From a virus, in IMG/VR virus record IMGVR_UViG_3300047462_000308, positions 1 through 37,670 of that record: a stretch of DNA of 37,670 nucleotides. One strand, given 5' to 3'. The notes under the pieces were generated by a model that was not told the origin of the DNA, did not search any database, and worked only from the letters and a program-made list of their open reading frames with translations. Shown here piece by piece: positions 1,007 to 23,593 of the stretch (the first letter of the stretch is position 1; the number at the start of each line of letters is the position of its first letter). The position numbers and the translations under genes were made by a program.

Positions 1007-1288
1007 ATGCAGCAAGCTCTCAGCCCCTTGACGCTCGCGAAGCTCTACGGCATCGGGCCGGATAAGCTCTACGCTTGGATTGCGAGCGGCGAGCTTAGAG
1101 CGGTCAACGTCGCGAGCAACCCGCGCGGCCGCCCGCAATGGCGCATCGAGCTAGAAGAGTGGCGACGGTTCACAGCGTCGCGAGAGAATGCCCCGCCGCG
1201 GCCTGCGTCAAGCTCCCCAAGCTCGCGACGCAGGCCGGCGCCAATCGCTAGACCTTTTTTCGGAGCCAACGGCGAACGTATTCGGTAA
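1007..1288 (+). CDS. small helix-turn-helix DNA-binding protein (excisionase/MerR-like)
   Basis: This 93-residue protein has an N-terminal winged-helix-type HTH of the excisionase/HTH_17 kind. TLAKLYGIGPDKLYAWIASG (about residues 8-27) gives the two helices, followed by LRAVN and a basic RGRPQWR segment typical of the wing. The C-terminal third is Pro/Ser/Arg-rich and looks disordered. It converges on Int1 and overlaps the 3' end of Int1 by 41 bp, so the two may form an Int/Xis pair, although Xis genes usually lie in the same direction as int. No good Shine-Dalgarno is visible before the ATG. An inverted repeat lies just upstream and may control it. The HTH call is fairly safe; the excisionase role is inference. 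Confidence 0.7.
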   Translation: MQQALSPLTLAKLYGIGPDKLYAWIASGELRAVNVASNPRGRPQWRIELEEWRRFTASRENAPPRPASSSPSSRRRPAPIARPFFGANGERIR

Positions 1289-2558
1289 CGGCCGCCAACC
1301 GTTCGTCGCCAATTGCCTCTTCGGTGTAGGCAACGGCCAGCATATCGCCGGCTTGCTCAACGTGCCCCATGATTGCCCGGACGGCATCCTTATCGCGCGT
1401 GCGCTGGCCAATTGTCGCGAACGTATGACGCAGCCCGTAAAACCCCAATCCAGGTCGTTTGATCCCAAGCTTGCGGAGCAGCTTGCCCATCTCTTTCGAG
1501 ATTGGGTTGTCGCGAGGATGCTCGCCCTTAGAACCCCAATGGTTGCCCCGCTTCGTGACAAAAACGATGTCCGATTCATCCTTCGGGGTCTTACGCTTCT
1601 CCAGAACGGTTGCAAGCGCTTCGATGGTTTCAGGCCACAGTGGACAACGCCGATTGATGCCGGTCTTCGGCCGCGGGAAGTTGAGCCAGCCGTTTTCAAG
1701 GTCTAGGTGCCTGCGTTCCAGGTTGACTAGATCGGAGTTGCCGAGTCCCGCATTGATGCCCAGTAAAATCATTGCCCGAAGCTGGGGGCCGGCGCTCGCG
1801 AGCATGGCCCGTATCTCTGCAGCCTCAAACATGCGGGGGCCGTTCTGATTCCGAAGCTTTCGCAGGGCAACGCGGCTCGGTCGCTGAAACTCCGGCCCGG
1901 ATCGGATAGGGCGGTCAACCAGCTCTGAATCGTAGGCGTACTTGAACAGCGTGCGGACGCACGTAATGTCTTTGCAGAGCCGGACGGCCCCATGAGTCCT
2001 CGAAAAGTGCGCCCGTAGCCCCTCAAAGTCGGCCGGCCGCAACGTGGTCACGTGTCGTTGTGGACCCAGAGCAGTCAAGACTTGCTGGCACACGTTGGCA
2101 TAGTCGTCCAACGTTCGGGGCGAAAGCTCCCCGCTTTCAACCCGCTTTTCCTTCGCTGCGAGAAACGCATTGACCAGATCGACAAGCTTCAAGCTCCCCG
2201 TCACGGTCTGCCGGCCCGCGAGCTTGTCCGTATAGCGCTGCAATGCCTCTTCGCCCTTGGGGTCTCTGGCCACCGATCCGAAATACTTTGTCTGGCCGTC
2301 AACTTTCTTCGCCCACTGGCCGGACGCATGCGGGAACAAGGGGAAGCCTTTCGACGGCTTTTGCGGCTTGACGATGCGTGCTACCTTTGCGGGTGTAGCA
2401 GTGCCGAGATACCTTGCCAGCGCTCCCTGTGGGTCATCCCATGAACCGAAGTAGCGAAGCTTGCCGTCAACTTTCTTCGCCCACTGGCCGGACGCATGCG
2501 GGAACAAGGGGAAGCCTTTCGACGGCTTTTGCGGCTTGGGACTGGCGGCTTTGCTCAT
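1248..2558 (-). CDS. tyrosine recombinase/integrase Int1 with duplicated N-terminal domain
   Basis: I place the start at 2558 (MSKAASPKPQ), giving 436 residues; the reading frame is open to 2627, but that extension is encoded by the GGTGTAG repeats. The N-terminus carries two copies of a KPSKGFPLFPHASGQW-type arm-binding module, encoded in part by an exact 76-bp direct repeat. A core-binding helical domain (LSPRTLDDYANVCQQVL) follows. The catalytic domain shows LRHTF (R377, H378), MGH (H399) and the nucleophile candidate Y411 in AVAYTEE. The usual first catalytic Arg (GLRxSE) reads GLGNSD, and the box II first His reads Tyr. I believe variants of this kind occur in planctomycete integrases. 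It is a neighbour of tRNA-Arg and probably drives a different element from Int2. Confidence 0.88.
   Translation of the reverse strand: MSKAASPKPQKPSKGFPLFPHASGQWAKKVDGKLRYFGSWDDPQGALARYLGTATPAKVARIVKPQKPSKGFPLFPHASGQWAKKVDGQTKYFGSVARDPKGEEALQRYTDKLAGRQTVTGSLKLVDLVNAFLAAKEKRVESGELSPRTLDDYANVCQQVLTALGPQRHVTTLRPADFEGLRAHFSRTHGAVRLCKDITCVRTLFKYAYDSELVDRPIRSGPEFQRPSRVALRKLRNQNGPRMFEAAEIRAMLASAGPQLRAMILLGINAGLGNSDLVNLERRHLDLENGWLNFPRPKTGINRRCPLWPETIEALATVLEKRKTPKDESDIVFVTKRGNHWGSKGEHPRDNPISKEMGKLLRKLGIKRPGLGFYGLRHTFATIGQRTRDKDAVRAIMGHVEQAGDMLAVAYTEEAIGDERLAAVTEYVRRWLRKKV
2295..2538 (-). repeat. 76-bp perfect direct repeat inside Int1
   Basis: Positions 2295-2370 and 2463-2538 are identical over 76 bp, offset by 168 bp (56 codons), so the frame is kept. 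The flanking codons of the two modules have diverged, while the 76 bp have not. This implies a recent duplication or gene conversion. Confidence 0.9.
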
Positions 2559-2570
2559 GGTGCTTGACGG

Positions 2571-2633
2571 GGTGTAGTGCCGGGTGTAGAAGTGGTGTAG
2601 TCGGTGTAGTCTTCGGTGTAGCTTCACTACACC
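2571..2633. promoter_or_regulatory. GGTGTAG repeat array upstream of Int1
   Basis: GGTGTAG occurs at 2571-2577, 2583-2589, 2594-2600, 2603-2609 and 2615-2621, and inverted (CTACACC) at 2627-2633. The last two form a 7-bp hairpin with a 5-nt loop. The array sits directly before the preferred Int1 start and 50 bp from the tRNA. Repeated short sites of this kind suit arm-type integrase or excisionase binding, or autoregulation of int1. Confidence 0.7.
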
Positions 2634-2684
2634 ACTACTCTAGGGTACTACAAAAATCGGCAGAATCAAGGCAAAAACAAGCAC

Positions 2685-2758
2685 GCGCCCGTAGCTCAAT
2701 AGGATAGAGCAGCGGATTTCTAATCCGCCGGTTACAGGTTCGAGTCCTGTCGGGCGTG
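2685..2758 (+). tRNA. tRNA-Arg (anticodon UCU)
   Basis: A full cloverleaf can be drawn. The acceptor GCGCCCG pairs with CGGGCGT (first pair G-U), the D stem GCTC with GAGC, the anticodon stem GCGGA with TCCGC, and the T stem ACAGG with CCTGT around TTCGAGT. The loop TTTCTAA gives anticodon TCT, which reads AGA. CCA is not encoded. AGA is a rare codon in GC-rich genomes, and such tRNA genes are common integration targets. It sits between Int1 and Int2, with its 3' end facing Int2. Confidence 0.95.
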
Positions 2759-2762
2759 CTCG

Positions 2763-2808
2763 AAAAAACGCGGCTCCCCCGCCTCCGCTCGCAAGCAGGC
2801 GGGTCCGC
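2763..2808 (-). terminator. intrinsic terminator of Int2
   Basis: On the minus strand a GC-rich stem (CCCGCCT with AGGCGGG at 2778-2784/2797-2803, extended by GCGG/CCGC across a small internal loop) is followed by GCG and six T (2763-2768). It lies 36 bp past the Int2 stop codon and stops transcription before the tRNA gene. Confidence 0.85.
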
Positions 2809-2843
2809 TGTACACAAAGCGTACACGAAAGCCGTTCCGAGGC

Positions 2844-4112
2844 TCACGCCAACCCCTCCGGAATCGGCAGAGCCGGCAGCCCCCGCCGGATCGTCTCAGT
2901 CTCCTCGTCATCAGTGTGCGTGTACCGACTCAATAGCTCGACCGACGAGTGCCGCGTCAGCTTGAGCACAGCCTTAAGCGGGATACCAGCCTTCGCCGCC
3001 GCTCGGACACAGCCCGTGCAGTAGTAATGTCTCAGGCTGTGGAAATCCAAAAACTTGCCCTGCTCCGTCTTGTACGGCAGGCCGGCCTCGGCGAGATCGC
3101 GCTGGATCATCTTAGCGGTGTCCTTCTCGTTCTCGTCGGTGATTAGACCAGGGAACAGCCTGGAGCCAGGCGGTAGCGAATCGAACCGCGCCTTGACCAT
3201 CTGAGCGAGTCGGGCATCGAGGCGTAGCTCGTCCTCTTGTCGGTGCTTGCTCCAATCTGGCTCCAGGCTCGCAAGAGGTTGCTTACCGTCGAGACCACGG
3301 AAATTCTGGCTCGTCAAACTCGACAGCTCCCGACGACGGAAGCCTAGGCCGACAGCCAGCAGATAGAGCAGAGCGCGGGTCCGGCCGTCGTAATCCTCGA
3401 CGATCGTTTGCGAGGCATAGGTGGTTGCGATGAGTTGCTGGAATTGATTCTCGGTCAGCACATCACGGGGGTGCTTGGCAGCATTACTCTTCCAAACCCT
3501 GTTCGGCTTGAGGCCATAGAGGGGATCGCGTGGTGCTCGGTTCTGAGCGACCAACCACGCGCTGAACTGTCTGACGGCTCGCAGACAGTACCGTCGAGTC
3601 TGGTTGAGTAAGGTCGGGCGTGCTTCGGGTTTTTTGTACCTCCTCTTCCCAGCCCGCTGGGTGCGGTAGCGAAAGCCTGCGATCGTCACCTGGACGAGTG
3701 TGGCATCGAGTTGATCCCACGTGGTGATCTTGGCGGCGATCAGCACCTTAAGCGTTCGCTCGCGGGTGTCGCGGACATGCTTCTTGCTCCGTCCAGCGGT
3801 CCGAAGGGTCTCGATCAAATCGAACAGGTGGCCGCCAACAAGATTGCTGTCCTCATCGAGCTGGTAGAGCGGCTTGGATCGGTGGTCGGCGTAGGCGTCG
3901 GCCTTGCGGGCAGCCGCCTCGATCCTTTCTTTCGCCTCCTCGATCTCCAGCTCGCGTGCCCACTTCTCGGCGACGGAGCGGTCGGTAGTGGAGTAGGTGG
4001 TGGGATAGTAGATGGCGTGACCTGTGCCGTCCTTGCGTCGATAGAGTCGGTAGACTCCGCGGCGTTTGGTTATACGGATACGATTGTCGACGGTCTTGCG
4101 TGGTTTGCTCAT
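2844..4112 (-). CDS. int: tyrosine recombinase/integrase Int2 (probable prophage integrase)
   Basis: The start at 4112 (MSKPRKTVDN) gives 422 residues and has GGAGA about 10 nt upstream; an in-frame extension to 4145 has no better signal. The N-terminus (RITKRRGVYRLYRRKDGTG) resembles an arm-type DNA-binding domain. A core-binding domain follows, then a complete catalytic domain: Arg in GLGFRRRELSSL, HSLRH (H358, R361), H388 in LTRHSS and Tyr397 in SRYTHTD. Its 3' end lies 86 bp from the 3' end of tRNA-Arg, the classic layout for an integrase using that tRNA as attB. An HTH gene of excisionase type lies 80 bp upstream. It is clearly different from Int1. Confidence 0.92.
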   Translation of the reverse strand: MSKPRKTVDNRIRITKRRGVYRLYRRKDGTGHAIYYPTTYSTTDRSVAEKWARELEIEEAKERIEAAARKADAYADHRSKPLYQLDEDSNLVGGHLFDLIETLRTAGRSKKHVRDTRERTLKVLIAAKITTWDQLDATLVQVTIAGFRYRTQRAGKRRYKKPEARPTLLNQTRRYCLRAVRQFSAWLVAQNRAPRDPLYGLKPNRVWKSNAAKHPRDVLTENQFQQLIATTYASQTIVEDYDGRTRALLYLLAVGLGFRRRELSSLTSQNFRGLDGKQPLASLEPDWSKHRQEDELRLDARLAQMVKARFDSLPPGSRLFPGLITDENEKDTAKMIQRDLAEAGLPYKTEQGKFLDFHSLRHYYCTGCVRAAAKAGIPLKAVLKLTRHSSVELLSRYTHTDDEETETIRRGLPALPIPEGLA

Positions 4113-4192
4113 GGGATTTGGTCTCCGGGGTTGCGGCGGCACCACGCCGCCACCCCCAGGGAATCAGACGAGAAGGCCGGCAGGCAGCTTTC

Positions 4193-10865: not shown

Positions 10866-13800
10866 TCAGCCTAGTTGCGTGCTCTGAATCACCAGATTCT
10901 TGCCGAGCTTCAGCGTCACGTCGTCGTCGCCGCACTGCACCGTGTTGAGCTGGATGTACGGCTGTCCGGCCGTCGTGACCGTCCCATTCGGATCGAGGAA
11001 GCTGGCACCGCTGTAGAGCGTGACCTGTCCAATCTGGAGAGCACGGGTATCGGAAGAGCGATCGAAGACGCCGCCAGAGGAAACAGTCAGCGAGTCAATC
11101 TCACCCGTCGACTTGCTGGTATAGGTGCAGTTCACGAGCGTAATTACCACCGCCCCGCCGCCGTCCTGCAAGATCGTGCCCGCGCTCCCCTTGATCGTCG
11201 TGATGGTCGAGGAAGCGAATGCCTCCCCGCCATTCAGTACAAGAAGAGACACTGCTGCTCCCGCCCCGATGTAGAGCGTGGTGTCGGTGTTCTGATTCGT
11301 CGTGTACCCCTGCCGCACCGTGCCCAGCGCAGCCGTCTGCCCGGGCAGGCTCGCGATGCCCACGATGCCGTAGGCTAGGTCGATCTCACTATTCGCATTG
11401 TTCCCGATCCAGGAGAGAGCGACCTCGGTGGCAGCCGGGACAGCCAGCTTGGCGATATTCATGGCGATCTGGCACGTGCCCGTGTCTAGGCTGATGTAGC
11501 CAGAGCCGCCGCTCGTCCCTGTGCCGATGGAAATGCTGAAGATGCCACCCGGCGGTCCCTGGATCGTCAGGTTCAGCGGGCGGTACTCAGCGTAGCCATT
11601 CGTGTTCTGTGGGAATAGGCCGATAAAGCCAGTGAAGGTCGAGTCAGCCGTAAGCGAGGCCACCTGCCCGTAGTTCAGGCCCCGATATCCGCCGTGGATC
11701 GAATAGCCGCTGCTTGGATCGGAGGCGATGCCGTACAGGCAGGATACGTCGGAGTTGGTGAAGATCAGGTTGTCCCCATCCGCCGTGCCTACCTGGAACG
11801 ATCCGCCTGGCAGCGGCTCCGCCGTCGTCGTGTAGGTGCCGTCGTCGATAAACAGTGTTTGGTCCGGATTCGTAATAGTCGTGACCATGTACTCCGGACC
11901 CGACGCTCCGGCGGAAGTGTCGGTGCCGCCTCCCATGACGCGGTAGACCCGGTAGCCTGTGGCTCCGTAGACGTAGTTCCACGACACCGCCAGCGAGCGC
12001 ATATCGGTGTTGTAGATGCTGATGGTGGCACCCTGGAGTCCGACCGGAGTTACGGCCAGCGCCGTCGGTGACTTGCCCGCGAGGGCACCAGCCAACTCGA
12101 ACCAGAAGGGGCTCGATTGCGTGCCCGCGCCGATCACCGTGCAGCCGCCTGGACCGATAGACAGCAGGCTCTGTAGGTTGGCCTGGATTGTTGCCGCGTT
12201 AGCATTGTAGGAGATAGAGCCAGTCGTCAGTCCGCCATATGAGAGAGTGTAGGCACCCCCTGTCGGCGTTCCGTTAAAATAAATCTTCGCTCCAGCGAAT
12301 GGCACACCGGCTGCCGTCTGGCTCGCCTCGGACTCACCGTTCGCGTTCAAAGCCGTGATGTTGTAGTAATAGGTGGCCCCCGAAATTAGCGAGCCGTGCG
12401 TTCCTGCGATCAACGAGGCGTTGGTTGCGGTAGGTGCGACGATGTTGATTGTCGGTGGCAAGAGATATAGGGCAGGGAGCGTGTGGCCTGACCAATTGGC
12501 CGGAGCGTCATAAAAATTGGGTCCAGTCGCCAGCGAGAAGACCTGCGGATACACAGGTGCCGTCGATGAGATGCCGATCAGGTCCGAGCCATCACCTGTG
12601 AGAGTGAAGCCTTGCGTTTGTGCAGTGGGCGTGATCGTGATCTGCCACGATCCGACCCCGCCTGCGAAACCTCCCACCACCGTCACACTGCCACCAACGT
12701 TTGTGGGAGCCAAAGCTGCCTGCACCTGAGCCGCGGTCGCGTCGTAGGGCAGCACGACCGTTCTCCCGTAGCTGAGAGAGAAGGTCCCAGCATCAGAATT
12801 CTGAGTTAGCACCGTGTAGACATTCGGCGTGGTCCCACTTGCCTGACCGCCTTGAGATACGACCTCCCCGGACAGCGTGCCTGTAGTGCAGGTGGCCTGG
12901 GAAAATGCGACGCTCCAGGGCAGGCTTCCCGTCACAGTCACGTTGCTGGTACCCACGCTACTGAGGGCTGCCAAGGCTGATTGGACGGTGCCCGCACTGG
13001 CATTATAGATTAGCTGCGGCGTCGTGCTGGCACCGAAACTGAGGGTGATATAATCCGGGGTTCCCTGGTAATTGACGAGATACGTCGAGCCTCCCTGCAA
13101 AGTGTTCTGCGGCGTGCTGGTTCCGTCATCAAGGAACCCAGGGACCGCCACTACGCCGATAAGCTGGTTTTCCAGTCCAGAGGCTATTCCGCGGTACACC
13201 TTGTACCCCGTGGCCCCACTTACCGCAGCCCAGTACAAGTCGATCGAGCGGTTCGCCTCGCTGGGGCCGAACGATTGGGCATTGCACTCGTTGCTTGGTG
13301 TCGTCTCCCCGTTCGGGCCAAAAGCCGTGACGACATAGTAGTATATGCCTGCCGGCAGGCTGCCGCCTATACTTTCGATCGGAGTCAGCCCGATTGGTGC
13401 CTGCAAGAAGCTGTTGTTCACAGTCGGCGGGAACACAAACCCAATACCATTAGCCGATAATATCCCCTGTCCAATCGTTGCCAGTTGCCCGACGAAGGAG
13501 ATCGTGTAAGTGGCAAGACCATTGGAGACAGCCGACGTGACCACTACGTTGCCGCTCCCTACCAGACCAGCCAAGGCGGTCTGTAAGGCCCCCGCGCTAA
13601 TGTTCCAGGCCAGCGGGCCGGTCGTCTGATTCTCCAACGTGAGGGTGAAGGTCCCGCTTCCCGCATTGGCGACAGCCAACTGCTGGGTGTCGTTCAGAGG
13701 GGTAAGGCCGGTGATTAGGGCCGTGATTGAGAAGGTGGCGAAGGCGTTGCCAATATCGACAAAGCTCGTGACGCCCGATCCCACCGTAGCCAGCCGATTG

Positions 13801-16800
13801 TTCTCGCTTCCAGAACTCGTCCCGCGATACACTTTGTACCCGTCGGCGCCCGTGACGGCGTCCCACACGAGAGTCACGTCGCCGGTCGAACCGCTCGTAG
13901 TCGCACTCACTTCGTTGCTGGCGACCGTCTCCCCCGCGTTCGTGTAGGCCGTCACCTCATAATAATAGGTGTTCGACGCCAGCACGCCGCCGCTCGTTGC
14001 AGGGGTGGCACTGACCAGAACAGGGGCCGAGATAATGGCAGTGTTGCCGCCCGGCGGGCTGGCCGACGTGTCGATGGGACCAGAATCATCAAAGGACGTG
14101 ACGGTGCCACTCGTGATTGTGGCAACAAGGACGTTCTCGCTCCCCGCACTCGTTCCGCGGTAGATTTTGTAGCCCGTGGCCCCCGTGTCCGTGGTCCATA
14201 TGATCTGCGGGACTTGAGGTGCGGTGATCGAGAGTGACTCCTCATTGCTGCCCGTCGTCTCGCCCGCAGAAGTCGTGGCAGTCACTTTGTAGTAGTAGGT
14301 TCCCGTTGCCAGCGCCCCGCCACTGGACACGACATTGGGGCCGGTCTGCGTCGGTACGGCAATCGAGGTTGTGTTGCTGCTTGGTGGGCTGGCGGAGGTA
14401 TGCAATCCACCGTAGTCGTAGAAATAAGCGTTCCAATCGGCCGGCTCCCCCGGTGTACTGATGTTGTCCGCTTGCGAGGGCGTGACCGAGCCGATCAAGA
14501 CGTTCTCACCCCCAGAGGAGGTCCCACGATAGAAATTCGTGGTGATCGTCGATCCGTCCGCGTTGCCGAGCAATTGCACGCTCTGCCCATACGCCGTGAT
14601 CGTGACCGCGACCTCGTTGCCGGGGCCTGACTCGACACCGCTGAGCGTGTTTGTCGTCTTGTAATAGTAGGTGCCCGGTGCAAGCACGCCGATCTGCGGA
14701 CTCCCTAGGTTCGCAACTACGGCATCAATGAAGGGAGCACCAGGACCGCCAGAGACCGGCGGAGACTGGCTCGTATTCACCGGCCCAGAATCAGTGAAGC
14801 CATAGGAGCTGCCCGACCCAGCACTGCTGGGGATGTTCGCCACCAAAACGTTCTCGCTCCCCGAACTCGTTCCGCGGTAAATCTTATACCCGGACGCTCC
14901 CGCCACGGTGTTGACCGTGATAAAGACCGAGTAATTGCCAGGAGATGGGACGGTCACGGACACCTCGCTGCCCGCATTTGTCTCCCCCGTCGTCGTGTAG
15001 GCGGTCGCCTTGTAGTAGAAAGTCCCGGTCCCGATCACGCTCCCATATTGGTAGGACAGGGAAGCGGTCATAGTCGGCGGAGTCAGACCAGCCGTGTTGC
15101 TGCTCGGAGGACTGGCCGAGGTGTGCAAGCCGCCATAATCTGTGTACGAAGTCGTCGTCACATTGACGATCTTGAGATTCTCGCCGCCAGAACTCGTCCC
15201 CCGGTAGACGCTATAGGAGGTAGCAGTCGGCACCGAATTCCAGGAGAGAGCCACGCTGCCGGTGGGGCCGGTTACAGCACAAGAGACTTCGTTACCGGTC
15301 GTCTCCCCGTTTGCATTGACCGCTGTCACCTTGTAATAGTACGTGTCCGTCGCTAAGATGCCTCCCAGCGAGGCGGGCAGTAGCGTCACGATCGGTGGGT
15401 CGACGCCCGCACCATTCGAGCCTGGAGGAGAGCCACTTGGCGGGGAGCCAACACTCAAGCTGCTAGTGGCGCCCCAAACAACCTTTTGGGCTGCCGCTTC
15501 GCCGACCGCCTCGATCGTGTAAGGGCCACCAGCATTACCGCTGACATTGACGGTGCCCGCCGGGAATGCCGCTTGCAGCGTTGCAGCACTCGCATTATAG
15601 GCGACCCCCGTGGCCGAAATGGTGTTGCCGGTGCTCAGTGTCCCTGTGAGGCTGAAGGTCCCGCTGCTCGGATTATCGTTCTGTGTGACGACGACGATCT
15701 CGTTGCGCCCCACGGGGGAACCTTGTGCCGCTCGCACGTTGTACGCGGTGAGCGTGTCACCCGGTGCGGGTGTCATTCCAGCCACATTCACAACGGCTAG
15801 CGACATTTCCCGTAGAGCGAGCCCTCCGGTGTAGGTCAGTGCAACGATGCTGCCAGCGTTGTTGAGTTTCACTCCTGTGGCAGTGATGTCGAAATAGTGC
15901 TGTAGGGGCAGAACGGCCTGAAGGGCGTTCAAGACTCCAGCAGCACTAGCACTCCAGGGGATCGGTCCCGTGGTGACGTTCAGGTCTGGAAGCGAGATCG
16001 TGTAGGTGCTGGAGTTACCCGGCTGCGAGATGCCATACTTCTGCACCCATCCGACCGCTTGTATCTCGTTCTGGACGGGGAACCCCGATTGTGACTCAAC
16101 GATCGTGACGGTTGGTAGAACCGTCACACCGGTGAAGTTGCCCTGTAGCAAGGCTTGGGGTGCATTGCCGAGACTGTTGATGAATTCGACAAAATAGCTG
16201 ATCGGAGTCGGCGAGGTGCCGTAATCTGTGAAGGTCGTGCCGGAGGTGACGCCGACCAGGACATTCTCCTGGCTTGGGGCAATCCCTCGGTAGATGCGGT
16301 AGCCGAGGGCACCAGTAACGGCACTCCACGAGAAGGTGACTCGGCCGGTCGGCCCCTCGACGAAAACCACCACCTCCGAGCCAGGCAGCGTCTCCCCTTG
16401 CGCGTCGATCGAAGTCGCGACGTAATAGTAGGTGCCCGTGGAAAGCGTGCCGCCATTCGCACTTGCCACAGCCAGCAGACCCGGCTTGCTGGTGATGGCA
16501 GCCGTAGGGATTACTGGTGGACTGGCTGGGAAGGTGGTCTGCATGGCCATGCCGCTCGTTGCGACAAAGTTAGCGCCGCTCACCTGAACATTCCCTACGC
16601 CGACAGCGGTGAGTGCCTCCAATTCTCCTTGCAAGACGCCATTTGTGGTGGGCGGTTGTGGGTTGGTCGCGATTGAGGCGTCGGTGTTATTGTCCGTATA
16701 GCTTGTGGTCGTGTTGTCCGCAACAGTTGTCACGAGGAAGTAGGGGCCGGTGATTGCCCCACCCGCCTTGGTGCGATAGATGCGTTTGCCTGTCACGACG

Positions 16801-18260
16801 GACGGGCCGTTCGCAATCGTGACGGTGACCTCCTGCGCAGAGGGCGAAATGACTAGTGAGGGTGCTGATGACTCCGTCTCCCCTGTGCTCGTGAGGTAGG
16901 TGTAGACGTAATAGTAGTTGCCGGTCAGATTGTCCGAGCTTCCTGTGGTTGCCAAAGTCGGTGGCTTGGGCGGGAGGGGAATGCTGTTGGTCGTCTCGTT
17001 CTCGAAGGAGACGGCGAAATATGAGCCGTTTAGGGCGTCGGGGGAGATGCTTATCTGCTGCACCTCGTTCGATCCCTTTCGAGCCTGTTGTAGGCGGATG
17101 ATATTTAGGGACGGAGGCACGACGTTGACTGACAACACATTCTGCTGCTGTTGCTGGCCCCAACTCGCGATCTGATTCAGAGTAAACGTCGGTTGGACCG
17201 TACCCGCTACCGCACTCGTCAGGTAGAACGGAATGCCTAAGGTGCCGACCAGCAAAAGTGTGTTTCCGTCTTGGGGTGCCGGTGCGTTTGGCGTCAGACC
17301 TTTCTGGACCTCCGTCACGATCAAAGTCGGCGGGCTGCCAGCCGGGATGGTGATTGGGTAGACGTAGGATTGCAGCCCAGTCTTGATGAGCTTCTGCTGT
17401 TGTGCGCCAAGCATATTGGCGAACTGCACCAGCCAGGGCGAGACGGCCGTCCCGTTGCCGCTGACAACCACGTTGCCGGGGCCGAATGGTTCCAAGGATT
17501 GCAAGATCGCTTGCAACTGTGTGGCCGTGGCATTCCACGGGATCCCTGTGGTGTTGCTTGTCGGCTGCGGTGCACCTAGCAAGTTGTCAAGCAGGCTGTC
17601 CGTGTAAAGCGTGGTCGAGTTGTCCCAGATCGTGGTGACAAGCCGCTCCGAGCCCTTCGCGCCAGCGGCAGGTGAACGATAGATGCGGCGACCGATGCAG
17701 CCCGTGTTGGCCGGGGCAGGCGGGATCGTCAACACAACGGTCTGATTCGTGGCCGAGATCACTCCCTCGATCGGGACGGGTGCTGTCTCGCCCACCTCTC
17801 CCAGCGGATTCAGGTTGAGCCAGGTGTAGGTATAACGGTAGGTCCCATTGAGGACGCCAGCGTGGCCGCTTGGGGTTGCGGCAATTGCTACGGCCGGATC
17901 GGGCAAGAAAGGTGTGGTCGCGCCTCCCCACGAGATTTGGTAACTGCCACCGGTCGGGTTGCCAACGAGATATAGGGCCTGAATCTCGTTGGTGCCCGGC
18001 CCCTGTGGATTGTCCGCCGGGTTGGACGCGGTAGGGACGCTGACGGTGATCTCCTGGAATTCTGGCTCGGCACTGTTCTGCCAGAGGGTGAGCATTTGGC
18101 TCACAGCATCTCCGGCCGTCCCATTGCTAAGGACAGAGAGGGTCTTCCCGTTGAGGGTGAGATTCCAGGTGGGTGCTAATGCTGTGACGGGCGGGGAGAT
18201 TGCCCACACCGTGGATTTTGAGGCGGCGTTGCCGAGCCATCTCTTTGTTTGCGAGCCCAT
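10866..18260 (-). CDS. giant modular tail fibre/tip protein with FN3-like repeats
   Basis: This is a 2464-residue protein. The N-terminus (MGSQTKRWLGNAASK) is a type I associate with planctomycete phage-like proteins. The body has ten FN3-like modules, each with a GTYYYKVTA..NANGET strand pair and later a GYKVYRGTSSGSEN hairpin. Between them are about eight modules of the type GTFTLT...YNASAATVQAAL...GNVTVSG. The last 400 residues lack these modules and are Gly/Ser/Thr-rich with short strands (GGSGYISLDTGTCQIAMNIA), compatible with a beta-helix tip. Several middle modules are close at DNA level (about 13.8-15.3 kb), so copy number can probably change by recombination. Position suggests a receptor-binding or tip fibre. 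Confidence 0.8.
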   Translation of the reverse strand: MGSQTKRWLGNAASKSTVWAISPPVTALAPTWNLTLNGKTLSVLSNGTAGDAVSQMLTLWQNSAEPEFQEITVSVPTASNPADNPQGPGTNEIQALYLVGNPTGGSYQISWGGATTPFLPDPAVAIAATPSGHAGVLNGTYRYTYTWLNLNPLGEVGETAPVPIEGVISATNQTVVLTIPPAPANTGCIGRRIYRSPAAGAKGSERLVTTIWDNSTTLYTDSLLDNLLGAPQPTSNTTGIPWNATATQLQAILQSLEPFGPGNVVVSGNGTAVSPWLVQFANMLGAQQQKLIKTGLQSYVYPITIPAGSPPTLIVTEVQKGLTPNAPAPQDGNTLLLVGTLGIPFYLTSAVAGTVQPTFTLNQIASWGQQQQQNVLSVNVVPPSLNIIRLQQARKGSNEVQQISISPDALNGSYFAVSFENETTNSIPLPPKPPTLATTGSSDNLTGNYYYVYTYLTSTGETESSAPSLVISPSAQEVTVTIANGPSVVTGKRIYRTKAGGAITGPYFLVTTVADNTTTSYTDNNTDASIATNPQPPTTNGVLQGELEALTAVGVGNVQVSGANFVATSGMAMQTTFPASPPVIPTAAITSKPGLLAVASANGGTLSTGTYYYVATSIDAQGETLPGSEVVVFVEGPTGRVTFSWSAVTGALGYRIYRGIAPSQENVLVGVTSGTTFTDYGTSPTPISYFVEFINSLGNAPQALLQGNFTGVTVLPTVTIVESQSGFPVQNEIQAVGWVQKYGISQPGNSSTYTISLPDLNVTTGPIPWSASAAGVLNALQAVLPLQHYFDITATGVKLNNAGSIVALTYTGGLALREMSLAVVNVAGMTPAPGDTLTAYNVRAAQGSPVGRNEIVVVTQNDNPSSGTFSLTGTLSTGNTISATGVAYNASAATLQAAFPAGTVNVSGNAGGPYTIEAVGEAAAQKVVWGATSSLSVGSPPSGSPPGSNGAGVDPPIVTLLPASLGGILATDTYYYKVTAVNANGETTGNEVSCAVTGPTGSVALSWNSVPTATSYSVYRGTSSGGENLKIVNVTTTSYTDYGGLHTSASPPSSNTAGLTPPTMTASLSYQYGSVIGTGTFYYKATAYTTTGETNAGSEVSVTVPSPGNYSVFITVNTVAGASGYKIYRGTSSGSENVLVANIPSSAGSGSSYGFTDSGPVNTSQSPPVSGGPGAPFIDAVVANLGSPQIGVLAPGTYYYKTTNTLSGVESGPGNEVAVTITAYGQSVQLLGNADGSTITTNFYRGTSSGGENVLIGSVTPSQADNISTPGEPADWNAYFYDYGGLHTSASPPSSNTTSIAVPTQTGPNVVSSGGALATGTYYYKVTATTSAGETTGSNEESLSITAPQVPQIIWTTDTGATGYKIYRGTSAGSENVLVATITSGTVTSFDDSGPIDTSASPPGGNTAIISAPVLVSATPATSGGVLASNTYYYEVTAYTNAGETVASNEVSATTSGSTGDVTLVWDAVTGADGYKVYRGTSSGSENNRLATVGSGVTSFVDIGNAFATFSITALITGLTPLNDTQQLAVANAGSGTFTLTLENQTTGPLAWNISAGALQTALAGLVGSGNVVVTSAVSNGLATYTISFVGQLATIGQGILSANGIGFVFPPTVNNSFLQAPIGLTPIESIGGSLPAGIYYYVVTAFGPNGETTPSNECNAQSFGPSEANRSIDLYWAAVSGATGYKVYRGIASGLENQLIGVVAVPGFLDDGTSTPQNTLQGGSTYLVNYQGTPDYITLSFGASTTPQLIYNASAGTVQSALAALSSVGTSNVTVTGSLPWSVAFSQATCTTGTLSGEVVSQGGQASGTTPNVYTVLTQNSDAGTFSLSYGRTVVLPYDATAAQVQAALAPTNVGGSVTVVGGFAGGVGSWQITITPTAQTQGFTLTGDGSDLIGISSTAPVYPQVFSLATGPNFYDAPANWSGHTLPALYLLPPTINIVAPTATNASLIAGTHGSLISGATYYYNITALNANGESEASQTAAGVPFAGAKIYFNGTPTGGAYTLSYGGLTTGSISYNANAATIQANLQSLLSIGPGGCTVIGAGTQSSPFWFELAGALAGKSPTALAVTPVGLQGATISIYNTDMRSLAVSWNYVYGATGYRVYRVMGGGTDTSAGASGPEYMVTTITNPDQTLFIDDGTYTTTAEPLPGGSFQVGTADGDNLIFTNSDVSCLYGIASDPSSGYSIHGGYRGLNYGQVASLTADSTFTGFIGLFPQNTNGYAEYRPLNLTIQGPPGGIFSISIGTGTSGGSGYISLDTGTCQIAMNIAKLAVPAATEVALSWIGNNANSEIDLAYGIVGIASLPGQTAALGTVRQGYTTNQNTDTTLYIGAGAAVSLLVLNGGEAFASSTITTIKGSAGTILQDGGGAVVITLVNCTYTSKSTGEIDSLTVSSGGVFDRSSDTRALQIGQVTLYSGASFLDPNGTVTTAGQPYIQLNTVQCGDDDVTLKLGKNLVIQSTQLG

Positions 18261-19094: not shown

Positions 19095-21572
19095 TCAGCC
19101 GCCGGCATTGACGCGGTGTTGAGTGTTCACCTGCCGCATTGCATTCTCAAGCATCTTGCGGACGGCCTTGAGGATTCGAGCCTCTAGCCCATCGAATTTC
19201 TTCTCCAACTCGACACCGGTCTGTTCGGCGAGTTGTATATCATCCCGCACATCGACAGCCCCGTTCACCTCGTAGCTGCCCTCGACAACGAAACGGTGCA
19301 CAACCACTTGTGGTGCTCCGCCCGCGGGAGCAGCCCCGGTAGGTGCCGGTGGTGAGAACGAAGGAGGGACCACAGTGGGAGGAGCACCCGGCGGCACAAC
19401 AGCTCCGGCCGCGGCGGCCGGAGCAGGAGCGGTCTCGGCCACCCGCCTTTGTGCCTCCTCAGCCTCTTGCTGTGCCTGGCGTCGTTGGGTGTTCCGCTCG
19501 TCGCGACGAGCACTCTTCGTCCCAGCTTCGGTCTGGGCTGCCGCTTCCTTCTGCCTCTCGACGTTGCCGATGAGTCCCTGTTGGTCATATTGACCGAGAT
19601 ATTGGCGAGCACGGCGTCTGGCGTCTTGCTTAGCCAGTTCGCTACTGCGTTCGTCGCCCACCTGCCGCAGAATGTCCCTGTCCTCCTTGCTGAGCTGTTC
19701 TCCTCTCTCGGCACGTTGACGAGCCTGGACAGCGTGAGCGATCGCCTGAGGCGACATTTCGCCGATGCGTTCCTCGACGCCCTGGCTCGCCTCGATGCGT
19801 TGGTTGAGCTTCTCCTTGGCAGCGTTCGCCTCCTCTTGGGCGTAATGGTATCGCTCCTTCGCCAGATCGAGCTGCTGTTTGGCGACCTCCAGCCCCTCCT
19901 TCTCCCGCTCCAGGATTTCGCCCTGCAGTTCGTCGATCTTCCGCTGGATTGCTAAGGCAGCCTCATAGCGATTGCCCTTATCATCGGCACCAATCGGAAT
20001 CCGGCCGCCCTCGAAGGGCGTCCCGGTTCGTGTCTCCAGCCTCTGTCGCTCTTCGCCGTATCTCGTCTGCTGCTCTTGGAGCTGCTGCCGTGCAAATTCC
20101 AGCCGCTGCTCATTCGCACGCTTCTCAGATTCGAGTGCCCTGGCAGACTGAGCCTGTTGTTGCTCTGTCTCGGACAAGAAACGGCCATTCGGTGCGGTTC
20201 TGATGCGGGTGACGGGAGCCGTATTGCGCCGCTCGATGTCGCGGAAGGCACTGCTCCTCTCGAACCCGACTTCCAATTGCCGGTTGCTGAATTCGAGGAG
20301 GGACCGCTCGTCCGCCTGGCGGCGCTGGTCGATTTGCTTCTGTGTCTTCTCCGCCAGGATTTCGGTGTTGTTCCGTGTCGCGACCGCTCCCCGGAAGGCC
20401 CCCCACCCAGCCGACAGGCGACCGAAGAAACCTCTATCCTCTTCCCCAGGCTTCTTGAATCCGGCGGACACGTCCCAAGGCTGGAAGCGGGTCTCTCGCT
20501 GGTATTGCAGCTTCTCTGGCTCGGACATAGTAGCCACGCGAGCCGCAATCGCCAATTTCGTGGCGTTGTAGAGGGCACTTTCGAGGCCGCCAGCCAGCTT
20601 CTTGGTCAGACCCGTGGTGACTCGGCCGCCGTTGAAAGCCTGATCGGCAGCCAGAGCGAGAGCGGCAGCGGTACCCGCGATAATGATGCCAGCCGGGTGG
20701 CGCATCGCCGTGGTGACGGCACCCCTCGTGATAGCCGTGCCCGCCGTAGCCGCCGCACTCGTCGCCTCGGCCGCGGTTGCCCCCGTGGTCGCCACACCGC
20801 TGGCCGTCGTGGCGGCCTTGGCAGCTTCTGCCGCCTTCGTGGCCACGCGTGCCTCCCGGAGCCCGTTAACGACGCCCGATATGCTCCGGAAGGTGTCGAT
20901 GCCCCCACGGATCGAATCAATCGTCCCCTGCACCGCCAGCAGGTTATCGAGAATCTTCTTCGTGTCCGACTCGCCCGTCGAACCCAGCAGGACGAACCCG
21001 CGGACGAGCTTCAGCACCCCATCGGCACTCTTGTCGAGATCATCCCGCAGTCGCTCCTGTGCCAGCTTGGCCTTCTCGGTCCCCTCCCGCTGGGCAGCCT
21101 CCTGCTCCTTCAGGTACTTGTCGACGGCTTTGCTGTTATCCTTGCCCCGCTTCTCCTTCTCACGTTCGGCAAGCTTCTTGTCGCGTGCCTCCTCTGCCTC
21201 CGCTTGCTTCTTCCACTGGGCAATCTGGCGATCGGCTGCCTCTCGTTGCTTCTGGGCGTCCCGATCGGCCGCGTTGGTGTCCTTCTCCTCCCGCTTGGTC
21301 TTACTCTTGCGGCCATAGGTCTCGAAACTGTCCCAGAATTTCTTCTCCTTCTCTTGGGCGCGTTGGAGGTCGCGGAGCCGCTTCTCCTGAATCTGGGCAG
21401 TGTTATCGCGAGGGACCGCACCGGCAGAGGAGCCGGGTTGCATGGCCCGATTGATGCGACTCTGGACCTGTGCCGCCTGCCGGGCGAAATTGTCCAAAGC
21501 GCTTCTAGAACTTGCATCGGCTGCTACGCCGAGGCGGTAGACTATGCGGCGATCGTTAGATGCTGCGACCAT
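19095..21572 (-). CDS. tape measure protein
   Basis: This is an 825-residue protein. The N-terminus (RRIVYRLGVAADASSRSAL) is typical of tail tape measures. Long charged coiled-coil segments follow (about 65-180: QIQEKRLRDLQRAQEKEKKF and others), then an Ala/Thr-rich hydrophobic region (about 245-310: TASGVATTGATAAEATSAAA), then more Gln/Arg/Glu-rich coiled coil (about 400-700). A Pro/Ala linker and a short C-terminal domain end it. Tape measures set tail length and can insert into the host membrane through the hydrophobic part. At about 1.5 angstroms per residue it would give a tail of roughly 120 nm. It is preceded by the frameshifting chaperone genes, as expected. Confidence 0.88.
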   Translation of the reverse strand: MVAASNDRRIVYRLGVAADASSRSALDNFARQAAQVQSRINRAMQPGSSAGAVPRDNTAQIQEKRLRDLQRAQEKEKKFWDSFETYGRKSKTKREEKDTNAADRDAQKQREAADRQIAQWKKQAEAEEARDKKLAEREKEKRGKDNSKAVDKYLKEQEAAQREGTEKAKLAQERLRDDLDKSADGVLKLVRGFVLLGSTGESDTKKILDNLLAVQGTIDSIRGGIDTFRSISGVVNGLREARVATKAAEAAKAATTASGVATTGATAAEATSAAATAGTAITRGAVTTAMRHPAGIIIAGTAAALALAADQAFNGGRVTTGLTKKLAGGLESALYNATKLAIAARVATMSEPEKLQYQRETRFQPWDVSAGFKKPGEEDRGFFGRLSAGWGAFRGAVATRNNTEILAEKTQKQIDQRRQADERSLLEFSNRQLEVGFERSSAFRDIERRNTAPVTRIRTAPNGRFLSETEQQQAQSARALESEKRANEQRLEFARQQLQEQQTRYGEERQRLETRTGTPFEGGRIPIGADDKGNRYEAALAIQRKIDELQGEILEREKEGLEVAKQQLDLAKERYHYAQEEANAAKEKLNQRIEASQGVEERIGEMSPQAIAHAVQARQRAERGEQLSKEDRDILRQVGDERSSELAKQDARRRARQYLGQYDQQGLIGNVERQKEAAAQTEAGTKSARRDERNTQRRQAQQEAEEAQRRVAETAPAPAAAAGAVVPPGAPPTVVPPSFSPPAPTGAAPAGGAPQVVVHRFVVEGSYEVNGAVDVRDDIQLAEQTGVELEKKFDGLEARILKAVRKMLENAMRQVNTQHRVNAGG

Positions 21573-21590: not shown

Positions 21591-22426
21591 TCAACTACGC
21601 GGCGCTGCCAGGAGAACAGCCTGAGTGAGCTGGTACTGCTCATACTGCCGCGTGACCTCCTCCACGACCGCCAGATTCTGGAGGAGGATCGGATCGGTGC
21701 GAGCCCGCTCCGAGAGACAAGCACCGCATGTGGCCTTCACCGCCTGTGCGAAACGGTAGGTCTGCCAGTTCTTCTCCGATAGCACGACCTCGGATTCGTG
21801 CTCCGGCCCCATTTTCGGGCAGTCTTTGCAGGGAGGGGGACCGCCGATGCGTGGCAGGGGTTTGCCATCGCGATCATCGAGCGTCTCGCCAGTCCCGTGC
21901 TGCTTGCTCCAATCCTTATCCCAATGCCAGTCCACCATGAACTTCTGGCATTGGGAGCAGGGGTTGTTCCGGGCTAACCCTGGATAATAGAGGAGAAGGG
22001 TTAGCCCGTTTCGGAGTTTCCCAAGTCGGCCACCTGCCTCGCGTCCTCTCCCTCAAGGGAGGCGACGTAACCATCGACATCTTCCTGGCTGGCCGTCTCG
22101 TCCAGATCGGTCGGACTGTAGCCAGCCACGATGTTCTCCAGCTTCGTGGAGAGGGCCGGTTGCAGCCGTCTCAGCGTCTCGTTGTCGATCGGCAACTCCT
22201 TCTCATCATGCTTGGCATCCCAGCTCACGAGCTGCTTGACCAGCATCTTGCGGATGAGACCGTTGAACTCGGCGGGCGATCGCTTGTTCGACTCGCGATA
22301 GAGTGCCTCCCGCTCGTCACGAAGGAGGGGGCGATACTCGAACTTCAGGGCGCCATGCAGGCCGGGGACGGCGGCGATCAGGCCCTTGCGGGTGTAGCCA
22401 TCTGGGATATAGGTCGGGTCGCTCAT
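21591..22426 (-). CDS. tail assembly chaperone G-T frameshift fusion (predicted)
   Basis: Translation starts at 22426 and shifts -1 at G GGA AAC (22022-22016). It yields 137 residues of the upstream frame, then 141 residues ending at 21591, for 278 in total. The new part begins LRNGLTLLLYYPG. It contains CSQC before the only ATG of the downstream frame (21938), plus CKDC and CGAC after it, so three CxxC motifs could bind zinc. That ATG has no Shine-Dalgarno (CAGAAGTTC precedes it), which argues against independent initiation. In many long-tailed phages a chaperone and its frameshifted form load the tape measure protein, and this pair lies directly upstream of the tape measure gene. Confidence 0.8.
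21971..22022 (-). promoter_or_regulatory. -1 programmed ribosomal frameshift signal
   Basis: On the minus strand the codons TTG GGA AAC contain GGGAAAC (22022-22016) in the X XXY YYZ frame. An 8-nt spacer TCCGAAAC (22015-22008) follows. Then comes a perfect 10-bp stem, GGGCTAACCC (22007-21998) with GGGTTAGCCC (21980-21971), around a 17-nt loop. The zero-frame TAA lies inside the stem. The -1 frame is open from here to the end of the downstream gene. All three parts of a classic signal are present at the usual distances. Confidence 0.88.
22001..22426 (-). CDS. tail assembly chaperone, short form (G-like)
   Basis: This is a 141-residue protein. It begins MSDPTYIPDGYTRKGLIAAV, a typical phage tail chaperone start, and has a helical acidic body (RDEREALYRESNKRSPAEFN; NETLRRLQPALSTKLENI). 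The C-terminus is acidic. GGAG lies 6 nt before the ATG, and the start overlaps the stop of the preceding gene as ATGA. It is the zero-frame product; the same start gives the fusion through the frameshift four codons before the stop. Location after the tail tube and before the tape measure supports the call. Confidence 0.75.
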   Translation of the reverse strand: MSDPTYIPDGYTRKGLIAAVPGLHGALKFEYRPLLRDEREALYRESNKRSPAEFNGLIRKMLVKQLVSWDAKHDEKELPIDNETLRRLQPALSTKLENIVAGYSPTDLDETASQEDVDGYVASLEGEDARQVADLGNSETG

Positions 22427-22695
22427 GATTGCTCCGGTGGTTGTCCATCATAGTTTTGAGCCGCAATTTCTGCCGCGTACTCCGCCGCGGGACTGCTGAT
22501 GCGCGGCAGGCTGGACTGGCGATTCGCGGGCCGGAGGACAAGCATGACGGTGGTTGTGTCCACCGCCTCCGTGACGCTGAAATCCCACTCCCAGCTCAGC
22601 CAGTCGTCCAGCAGAGACTTCACCTCCCGCAGATGCTGCTCCAATTGGAACTTCGCATCCCGCCGAGAGGTCGACGAGAACTGAATCTTGGGCAT
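22423..22695 (-). CDS. small tail-module hypothetical protein
   Basis: The start at 22695 (MPKIQFSSTS) gives 90 residues. It overlaps the stop of the tail tube gene as TAATG, which decides it over the longer frame to 23103. That longer frame would translate the tail tube gene out of frame. The protein has a beta-helix-beta look (FSVTEAVDTTTVMLVLRPAN) and no known family. Its place between tail tube and chaperones is common for small tail proteins. Confidence 0.65.
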   Translation of the reverse strand: MPKIQFSSTSRRDAKFQLEQHLREVKSLLDDWLSWEWDFSVTEAVDTTTVMLVLRPANRQSSLPRISSPAAEYAAEIAAQNYDGQPPEQS

Positions 22696-23593
22696 TACGA
22701 TGTCGACTCGACCACCAATTCCAAGGTGCTGCCCAGCTTGCGGACCACACCCTCCAACGGCAGCAAGATTTCCTTCTTCTTCCCTTGAATGACTGGCGTC
22801 TTTGCAGGAATGATGAGGCTCGCCATGTTGAACGCAAGCGTGTTGCTCCCATTCGTGAACACGACCGACGCCGCCACGCCAGGCGGATTCATCGCATTGT
22901 ACAGAGCCAGTTCCGTGCTCGTAAAAGGCAACATCGCCTTGAACGTCACATCCCGATCGAGAGCCGGGATGGCGGTGCGGACTTGGCTGTTGAAAAACCG
23001 CTCCTTGTCCACCATATTGTCGATCACCAGCTCCCACTCGTCGGCCAGAATATTGCCGGTACCGTTGAGCGTGATGCCGGCCGCCGAGGCGAAGAACTGC
23101 CAAGGCTGCTCCGTCGAGAGCGACAGGCTGGGGAAGCTACCCGCGGCCCCCTGGCTCTCGTCGACGCCCGCGATCTCGATCTCCGCCTCCACGTGTTCGC
23201 CCTTCCGGCCGCGGAAGGTGGCCTTGCTGACCACGCAGCCGTTGTAGGTGTAGACAGCGGTGGAGAGATCCTTCACGAGATAGAACGTGGGCAGCGTGTC
23301 CGTCAGCGTGTACTGGGTGCCAAAGGTGCCCGAGGTGCCAGTAGCACCCAGGATGTAGGGCAAGAAAGCCTGCATGAGGCTGGGAAGGGCTTCGTCTTGA
23401 AGGAGCCATCCACGGCGCGGGTGCCCGGCACCATGTTGTCGGCGATGCGGGAGCGGCTGCCGCGGATGCCTTCCGTCTCCAGGTTGGTACGGATGCACTG
23501 GATGTTCTCATCCGTGAACTCGAAGCGTGTCGTGACGGGCAGGGAGGCACCGATGCCCATCTGGCCCTTTGCACCGATTGCGGGGACGCCCAT
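22695..23593 (-). pseudogene. major tail tube protein gene with apparent 1-nt frameshift
   Basis: Two overlapping frames make one protein. The first (from 23593, MGVPAIGAKGQMGIG, GGAG 9 nt upstream) reads LETEGIRGSRSRIADNMVPG and then continues out of sense after FKTKPFP (to 23303). The second continues SLMQAFLPYILG, FYLVKDLSTAVYTYNGCVVS and ends at 22695. Adding one C at CCC (plus-strand GGG, 23382-23384) joins them perfectly into 299 residues. The sequence pattern fits phage tail tube proteins (ETEGIRG and a LLPYILG-like segment, a beta-barrel core). Either a real mutation or a homopolymer sequencing error is possible. There is no slippery heptamer at the join. A defective tube gene would block virion assembly. 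Confidence 0.8.

Follow-up and report, generated by a model that had tools for sequence, protein, structure and literature searches.

The slippery site of phage lambda is G_GGA_AAG, and in frameshifting of its G/GT type a downstream stimulatory structure is supportive and not required; some known cases have none. The lambda proteins gpG and gpGT arise through a -1 shift of frame ahead of the tape measure gene (Levin 1993, Xu 2004 and 2013; reviewed in PMC5009743). In the haloarchaeal tailed viruses HCTV-1 and HCTV-2 the heptamers G_GGA_AAC and A_AAA_AAC serve g-t frameshifting (PMC5009743). With mammalian ribosomes both heptamers were found to be among the most prone to shifting, and in E. coli A_AAA_AAC was far less shift-prone than A_AAA_AAG (PMC5009743).

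Here we describe a similar locus in a virus record, analysed over its whole stretch of 37,670 nt (the window, to which all positions refer). As in lambda, two overlapping frames stand between the genes for tail tube and tape measure, with a putative -1 slip shortly before the first frame ends, and the short product is expected to be common and the fusion rare, as they are in lambda. In contrast to the lambda G_GGA_AAG, the window and its relatives use G_GGA_AAC or A_AAA_AAC; the window further differs from lambda by a clear downstream hairpin, a four-cysteine domain in the -1 frame and no detectable sequence match to a known chaperone. HCTV-1 and HCTV-2 resemble the window family in both heptamers; their hosts are archaeal, and the comparison covers heptamers and purpose. 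We concluded that the site is of a kind already known, the lambda G/GT type. A literature search found no G/GT-type case for Pirellulales prophages, to which the lambda frameshift is here extended by conservation evidence and not by eye. Programmed -1 ribosomal frameshifting of a tail-assembly-chaperone gene, in a long-tailed phage with relatives among Pirellulales prophages, is in our judgement very probably the explanation of the locus. The first-pass annotation of the record had proposed the same reading, which is supported by the signal, its phase, the excess over synonymous chance, the conservation, the -1 peptide and the gene order; the shift itself, and how often it would occur, are inferred.

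Slippery site and hairpin in the window

The minus strand at the site reads GTG GCC GAC TTG GGA AAC TCC GAA ACG GGC TAA. The frame of a 141-aa ORF (22001..22426, minus) sets TTG GGA AAC and thereby the X_XXY_YYZ phase of GGGAAAC (G_GGA_AAC, 22016..22022, minus), and four sense codons (TCC GAA ACG GGC) separate the heptamer from the TAA stop. This ORF would encode the short chaperone-like product (G-like, TAC-N). After an 8-nt spacer (TCCGAAAC, 22008..22015, minus) follow the arms of the putative stimulatory hairpin, GGGCTAACCC on the 5' side (21998..22007, minus), which holds the 0-frame TAA, and GGGTTAGCCC on the 3' side (21971..21980, minus). The arms form a perfect 10-bp stem with a 17-nt loop. 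The RNAfold energy minimum extends the stem by a pair at either end, giving 12 bp, a 7-nt spacer and a 15-nt loop. A hairpin distance of 5-8 bases has been given (PMC4066793), with which the window spacer agrees. The -1 frame (21591..22016, minus) runs without a stop over 141 codons down to its stop codon at 21591 and contains the putative C-terminal extension (T-like, TAC-C) with the motif CxxC...CxxCPK, which would be reached via the shift. The fusion made by a -1 slip would have 278 aa. When coordinates and phase were read again, the description of the heptamer, spacer, stem, loop and open -1 frame in the first-pass annotation proved correct, with the 12-bp form as the only refinement.

To judge the signal against chance, in-phase X_XXY_YYZ heptamers (Y=A/T) were counted in the genes of the window. 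Six were found in 10,326 codon positions (5.8e-4 per codon), which corresponds to a probability of about 0.3% for an in-phase heptamer to fall among the final five codons of any one gene. Compared with dinucleotide shuffles the hairpin had a z of -3.67, with 1 of 200 shuffles as good, and compared with synonymous shuffles in which -1 peptide and codon set are retained a z of -4.5; none of 8,000 synonymous-codon shuffles keeping the -1 peptide folded as stably. We concluded that the signal in the window is not due to chance. We also considered whether a Shine-Dalgarno-like sequence ahead of the heptamer acts as a stimulator (p 0.006 in the window) and rejected this for want of conservation (family Stouffer -1.3).

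In the proposed mechanism most ribosomes would read on to the TAA and release the 141-aa protein. A minority would be held up by the hairpin while Gly-tRNA occupies GGA and Asn-tRNA occupies AAC; the two tRNAs would slip one base back to GGG and AAA, and translation would resume as LRNG..., yielding the fusion with the junction ...DLGN-LRNG.... By analogy with lambda gpG/gpGT, the part shared by both products would cover the tape-measure protein and the rare extension would bring in tail-tube subunits, so that the shift would set the product ratio needed for tail assembly.

Relatives of the locus and a capsid-related clade

With the 141-aa protein as direct query no relatives were found in viral contigs, genome contigs or phage records. 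Relatives were instead reached via the capsid protein, which led to the viral contig L009, and then via an alignment of the fusions. L009 is colinear with the window in terminase (58%), portal (46%), head and tail genes. Its TAC-N homologue is 35% identical to the 141-aa protein and ends TTG GGA AAC TGA, so that GGGAAAC has the same place and phase as in the window; seven bases on, at an equal distance, stands a stem with one bulge. Other relatives found by terminase had that gene alone in common with the window and yielded no chaperone, and portal relatives in planctomycete genomes offered no clear homologous site.

A profile built from the two fusions (window and L009) was run against 396 Pirellulales genomes and matched 19 loci in 17 of them. 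At 16 of the 19 loci an in-phase heptamer lies exactly between both halves, at the same alignment position; it is A_AAA_AAC in 15 and G_GGA_AAC, in the same phase as in the window, in one (L192). The stop is the very next codon after the heptamer in 13 of the 16 and comes 6 or 8 codons later in the other three, a range that includes the four-codon gap of the window. No heptamer was present at L188, L194 and L203. In L188 it is lost and both halves are fused in one frame, L194 has AAGAAAC at the position, and in L203 the C half was not found. The chaperone locus of L188 (5501 bases) lies near 2306-3049 on the reverse strand, and the genome that carries it has a second locus, L189, with the usual A_AAA_AAC arrangement. 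Lack of queuosine was considered as a reason for the AAC sites and found no support, with tRNA-guanine transglycosylase present in 17/17 host genomes.

We then compared the folding downstream of the heptamer across the family with synonymous shuffles that preserve the -1 protein. In the 48 bases directly after the heptamer the mean z was -2.16 and the Stouffer value -8.35 over 15 non-identical sites, which are related, so that this value is no strict probability. Elsewhere at these 15 sites the excess was near zero for most of the offsets examined, which ranged from -90 to +270. A second, weaker excess was seen about 195 nt past the heptamer in the C half (around 21820 in the window; Stouffer -4.4). 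Individually strong excess was found for L192, L196, L202 and L193. Downstream structure beyond chance was found in the window and in the family, save for 5 of 18 family sites (L189, L195, L199, L200, L201), where the fold was no better than shuffles. The longest helix was centred at i+j = 42, 44, 50, 52 or 54, in a numbering that begins at the base following the heptamer. Because the pairing register differs in this way between relatives, the hairpins appear to have been rebuilt at the same place and not inherited pair by pair; the comparison indicates a stem kept as a structure at a place, not base by base. The first-pass annotation had set conservation of heptamer and stem in homologues as the test of its proposal, and the proposal passed it, with L009, 16/19 Pirellulales loci and a sharp local hairpin signal.

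A similar arrangement was found in a clade of IMG/VR contigs (L010-L095) that shares the major capsid protein of the window at ~38% identity. GGGAAAC or GGGAAAA stands in phase at the end of a short ORF, followed by a stem and with the -1 frame open, in 52 of the 53 contigs reaching the region, which represent 15 distinct site sequences. The stop follows the heptamer directly, except for one site with one codon between. Stem pair 17-51 changes in a compensatory manner, being G-C in eleven, C-G in three and A-U in one. Within the stem, 7 cells were changed on both sides versus 2.2 expected, and the covariation score was 0.211 versus 0.119; 0/500 shuffles scored as high as 0.211, and sliding the stem gave <=0.10. 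Unlike that of the window, the chaperone candidate of this clade belongs to another family (~84 + 86 versus 137 + 141 residues); homology between the two was not detected, and the profile comparison returned only a 14-column match around the junction.

Among the roughly 18 sites of the window family, heptamers have been exchanged and stems re-paired by nature, and in one case the halves are fused in frame. Such a family makes it testable on which heptamers planctomycete ribosomes slip, and whether a phage builds tails with the fused chaperone alone.

The -1 half and other possible origins of a long product

The -1 frame is long and open, and its protein is conserved from the slip site on. In the family alignment L1, G4, P12, C20 and C23 are conserved, beginning with the first codon after the heptamer. 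Four cysteines are invariant (C20/C23 and C63/C66), the second pair within CxxCPK or CxxCPR, and the half could possibly adopt a zinc-binding fold.

The two frames could instead be separate genes, the downstream one starting at its own ATG or at a non-ATG start, with heptamer and hairpin incidental. The -1 frame of the window does have an ATG, at codon 27 (21938), and GTG, TTG or ATG codons occur early in the C half of many relatives. However, the window ATG comes after the first invariant CxxC, the residues preceding it are conserved, and neither in the window nor in L196 is there any ATG, GTG or TTG between the heptamer and the first CxxC. The complete conserved domain could therefore be made in these two only via the shift. 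In L192 the -1 half has its first Cys at residue 3, and its first start codon comes at residue 9, still before the conserved pair. Also the heptamer kept in phase across relatives and the natural in-frame fusion of both halves in L188 speak against two genes, and we regard this reading as very improbable. The first-pass annotation had argued from the lack of a ribosome-binding site at the downstream ATG, which is a weak argument by itself; what carries weight is the conservation upstream of the ATG.

Transcriptional slippage on the heptamer, in place of ribosomal slippage, could likewise produce a long product, and six or seven consecutive A's stand at fifteen of the Pirellulales sites. Against this, GGGAAAC in the window, L009 and L192 offers runs of only three bases, and the hairpin and its spacing suit a ribosomal stimulator. 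Exchange between A_AAA_AAC and G_GGA_AAC interrupts the A-run and retains the two-tRNA slip geometry, and therefore ribosomal slippage is favoured; we give transcriptional slippage hardly any credence.

Gene neighbourhood, host and other features of the record

With programmed ribosomal frameshifting as the preferred reading, names can be given to the two adjoining ORFs, which an annotation pipeline would otherwise report as two separate hypothetical proteins. The pair lies between a tail tube and a probable tape measure gene. In L009 the order is tail tube, TAC-N, TAC-C and tape-measure candidate, and the protein directly upstream of the chaperone frames matches Phage_tube_2 (E 1.5e-22). The homologous tail tube gene of the window (22695..23593, minus) likewise lies upstream, and between it and TAC-N there is a small ORF ending at 22423. 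Downstream, 18 nt past the end of the -1 frame, starts the probable tape-measure protein (19095..21572, minus; 825 aa with long charged helical stretches), which had no family match and was assigned by length, composition and position alone. The window, L009 and several relatives all have a long helical, coiled-coil-like candidate directly downstream. In L193, L196, L197 and L202 the ORF after the chaperone pair has only 180-297 aa instead; these may possibly be decayed prophages or encode short tail-like particles.

Neither chaperone half gave a confident Pfam, PHROG or PDB match, and the thresholds for Phage_TAC_* and PHROG chaperone families were not reached; the best chaperone-family match was Phage_TAC_4 (E 0.03), in 1 of 13 relatives. 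Structure prediction from two-sequence alignments (mean pLDDT 52 and 43) was too poor to use and gave no usable PDB match. That the two frames are a tail assembly chaperone pair before the tape measure gene, as the first-pass annotation had suggested, is supported by the gene order and the overlapping-frame architecture, not by similarity to a known chaperone, and the function is accordingly a putative one. As judged by sequence, the family is conserved, unnamed in the libraries searched and in this respect new.

The tail tube gene of the window is itself split between two frames. Its break carries no canonical slippery heptamer, and an assembly error or a prophage lesion is likely there. This apparent indel, at least one in the record, would suit a sequencing or assembly error or decayed-prophage lesion in a truly single-frame chaperone gene as well, a reading with practically no probability left and already refuted because the chaperone break is conserved: L009 and 16 Pirellulales loci share its position and have a heptamer there, and 52/53 contigs of the L010-L095 clade show an analogous break.

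The first-pass annotation called the record a planctomycete prophage. The planctomycete link is backed by the Pirellulales relatives and by integrase matches, those nearest to the window integrase coming from planctomycetes (54% with a Pirellulales bacterium). Since the window is an isolated viral contig, its host is presumed. A tRNA-Arg gene adjoins the integrase. Two integrase genes on the same strand (1248-4145) flank this tRNA-Arg (TCT, 2685-2759), which likely marks an attachment site or else the border of two elements. One of them (1248-2627) contains an in-phase A_AAA_AAG at 1254-1260 (minus), one codon before the stop and followed by a very stable stem. It was rejected as a frameshift site, being not kept in five homologues, and is probably a chance occurrence beside a terminator-like structure.

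A fifth of the record is taken up by a gene for a 2464-aa protein (10866-18260, minus). Segments of head, tail and esterase families match it repeatedly, which suggests a mosaic adhesin-like tail protein.
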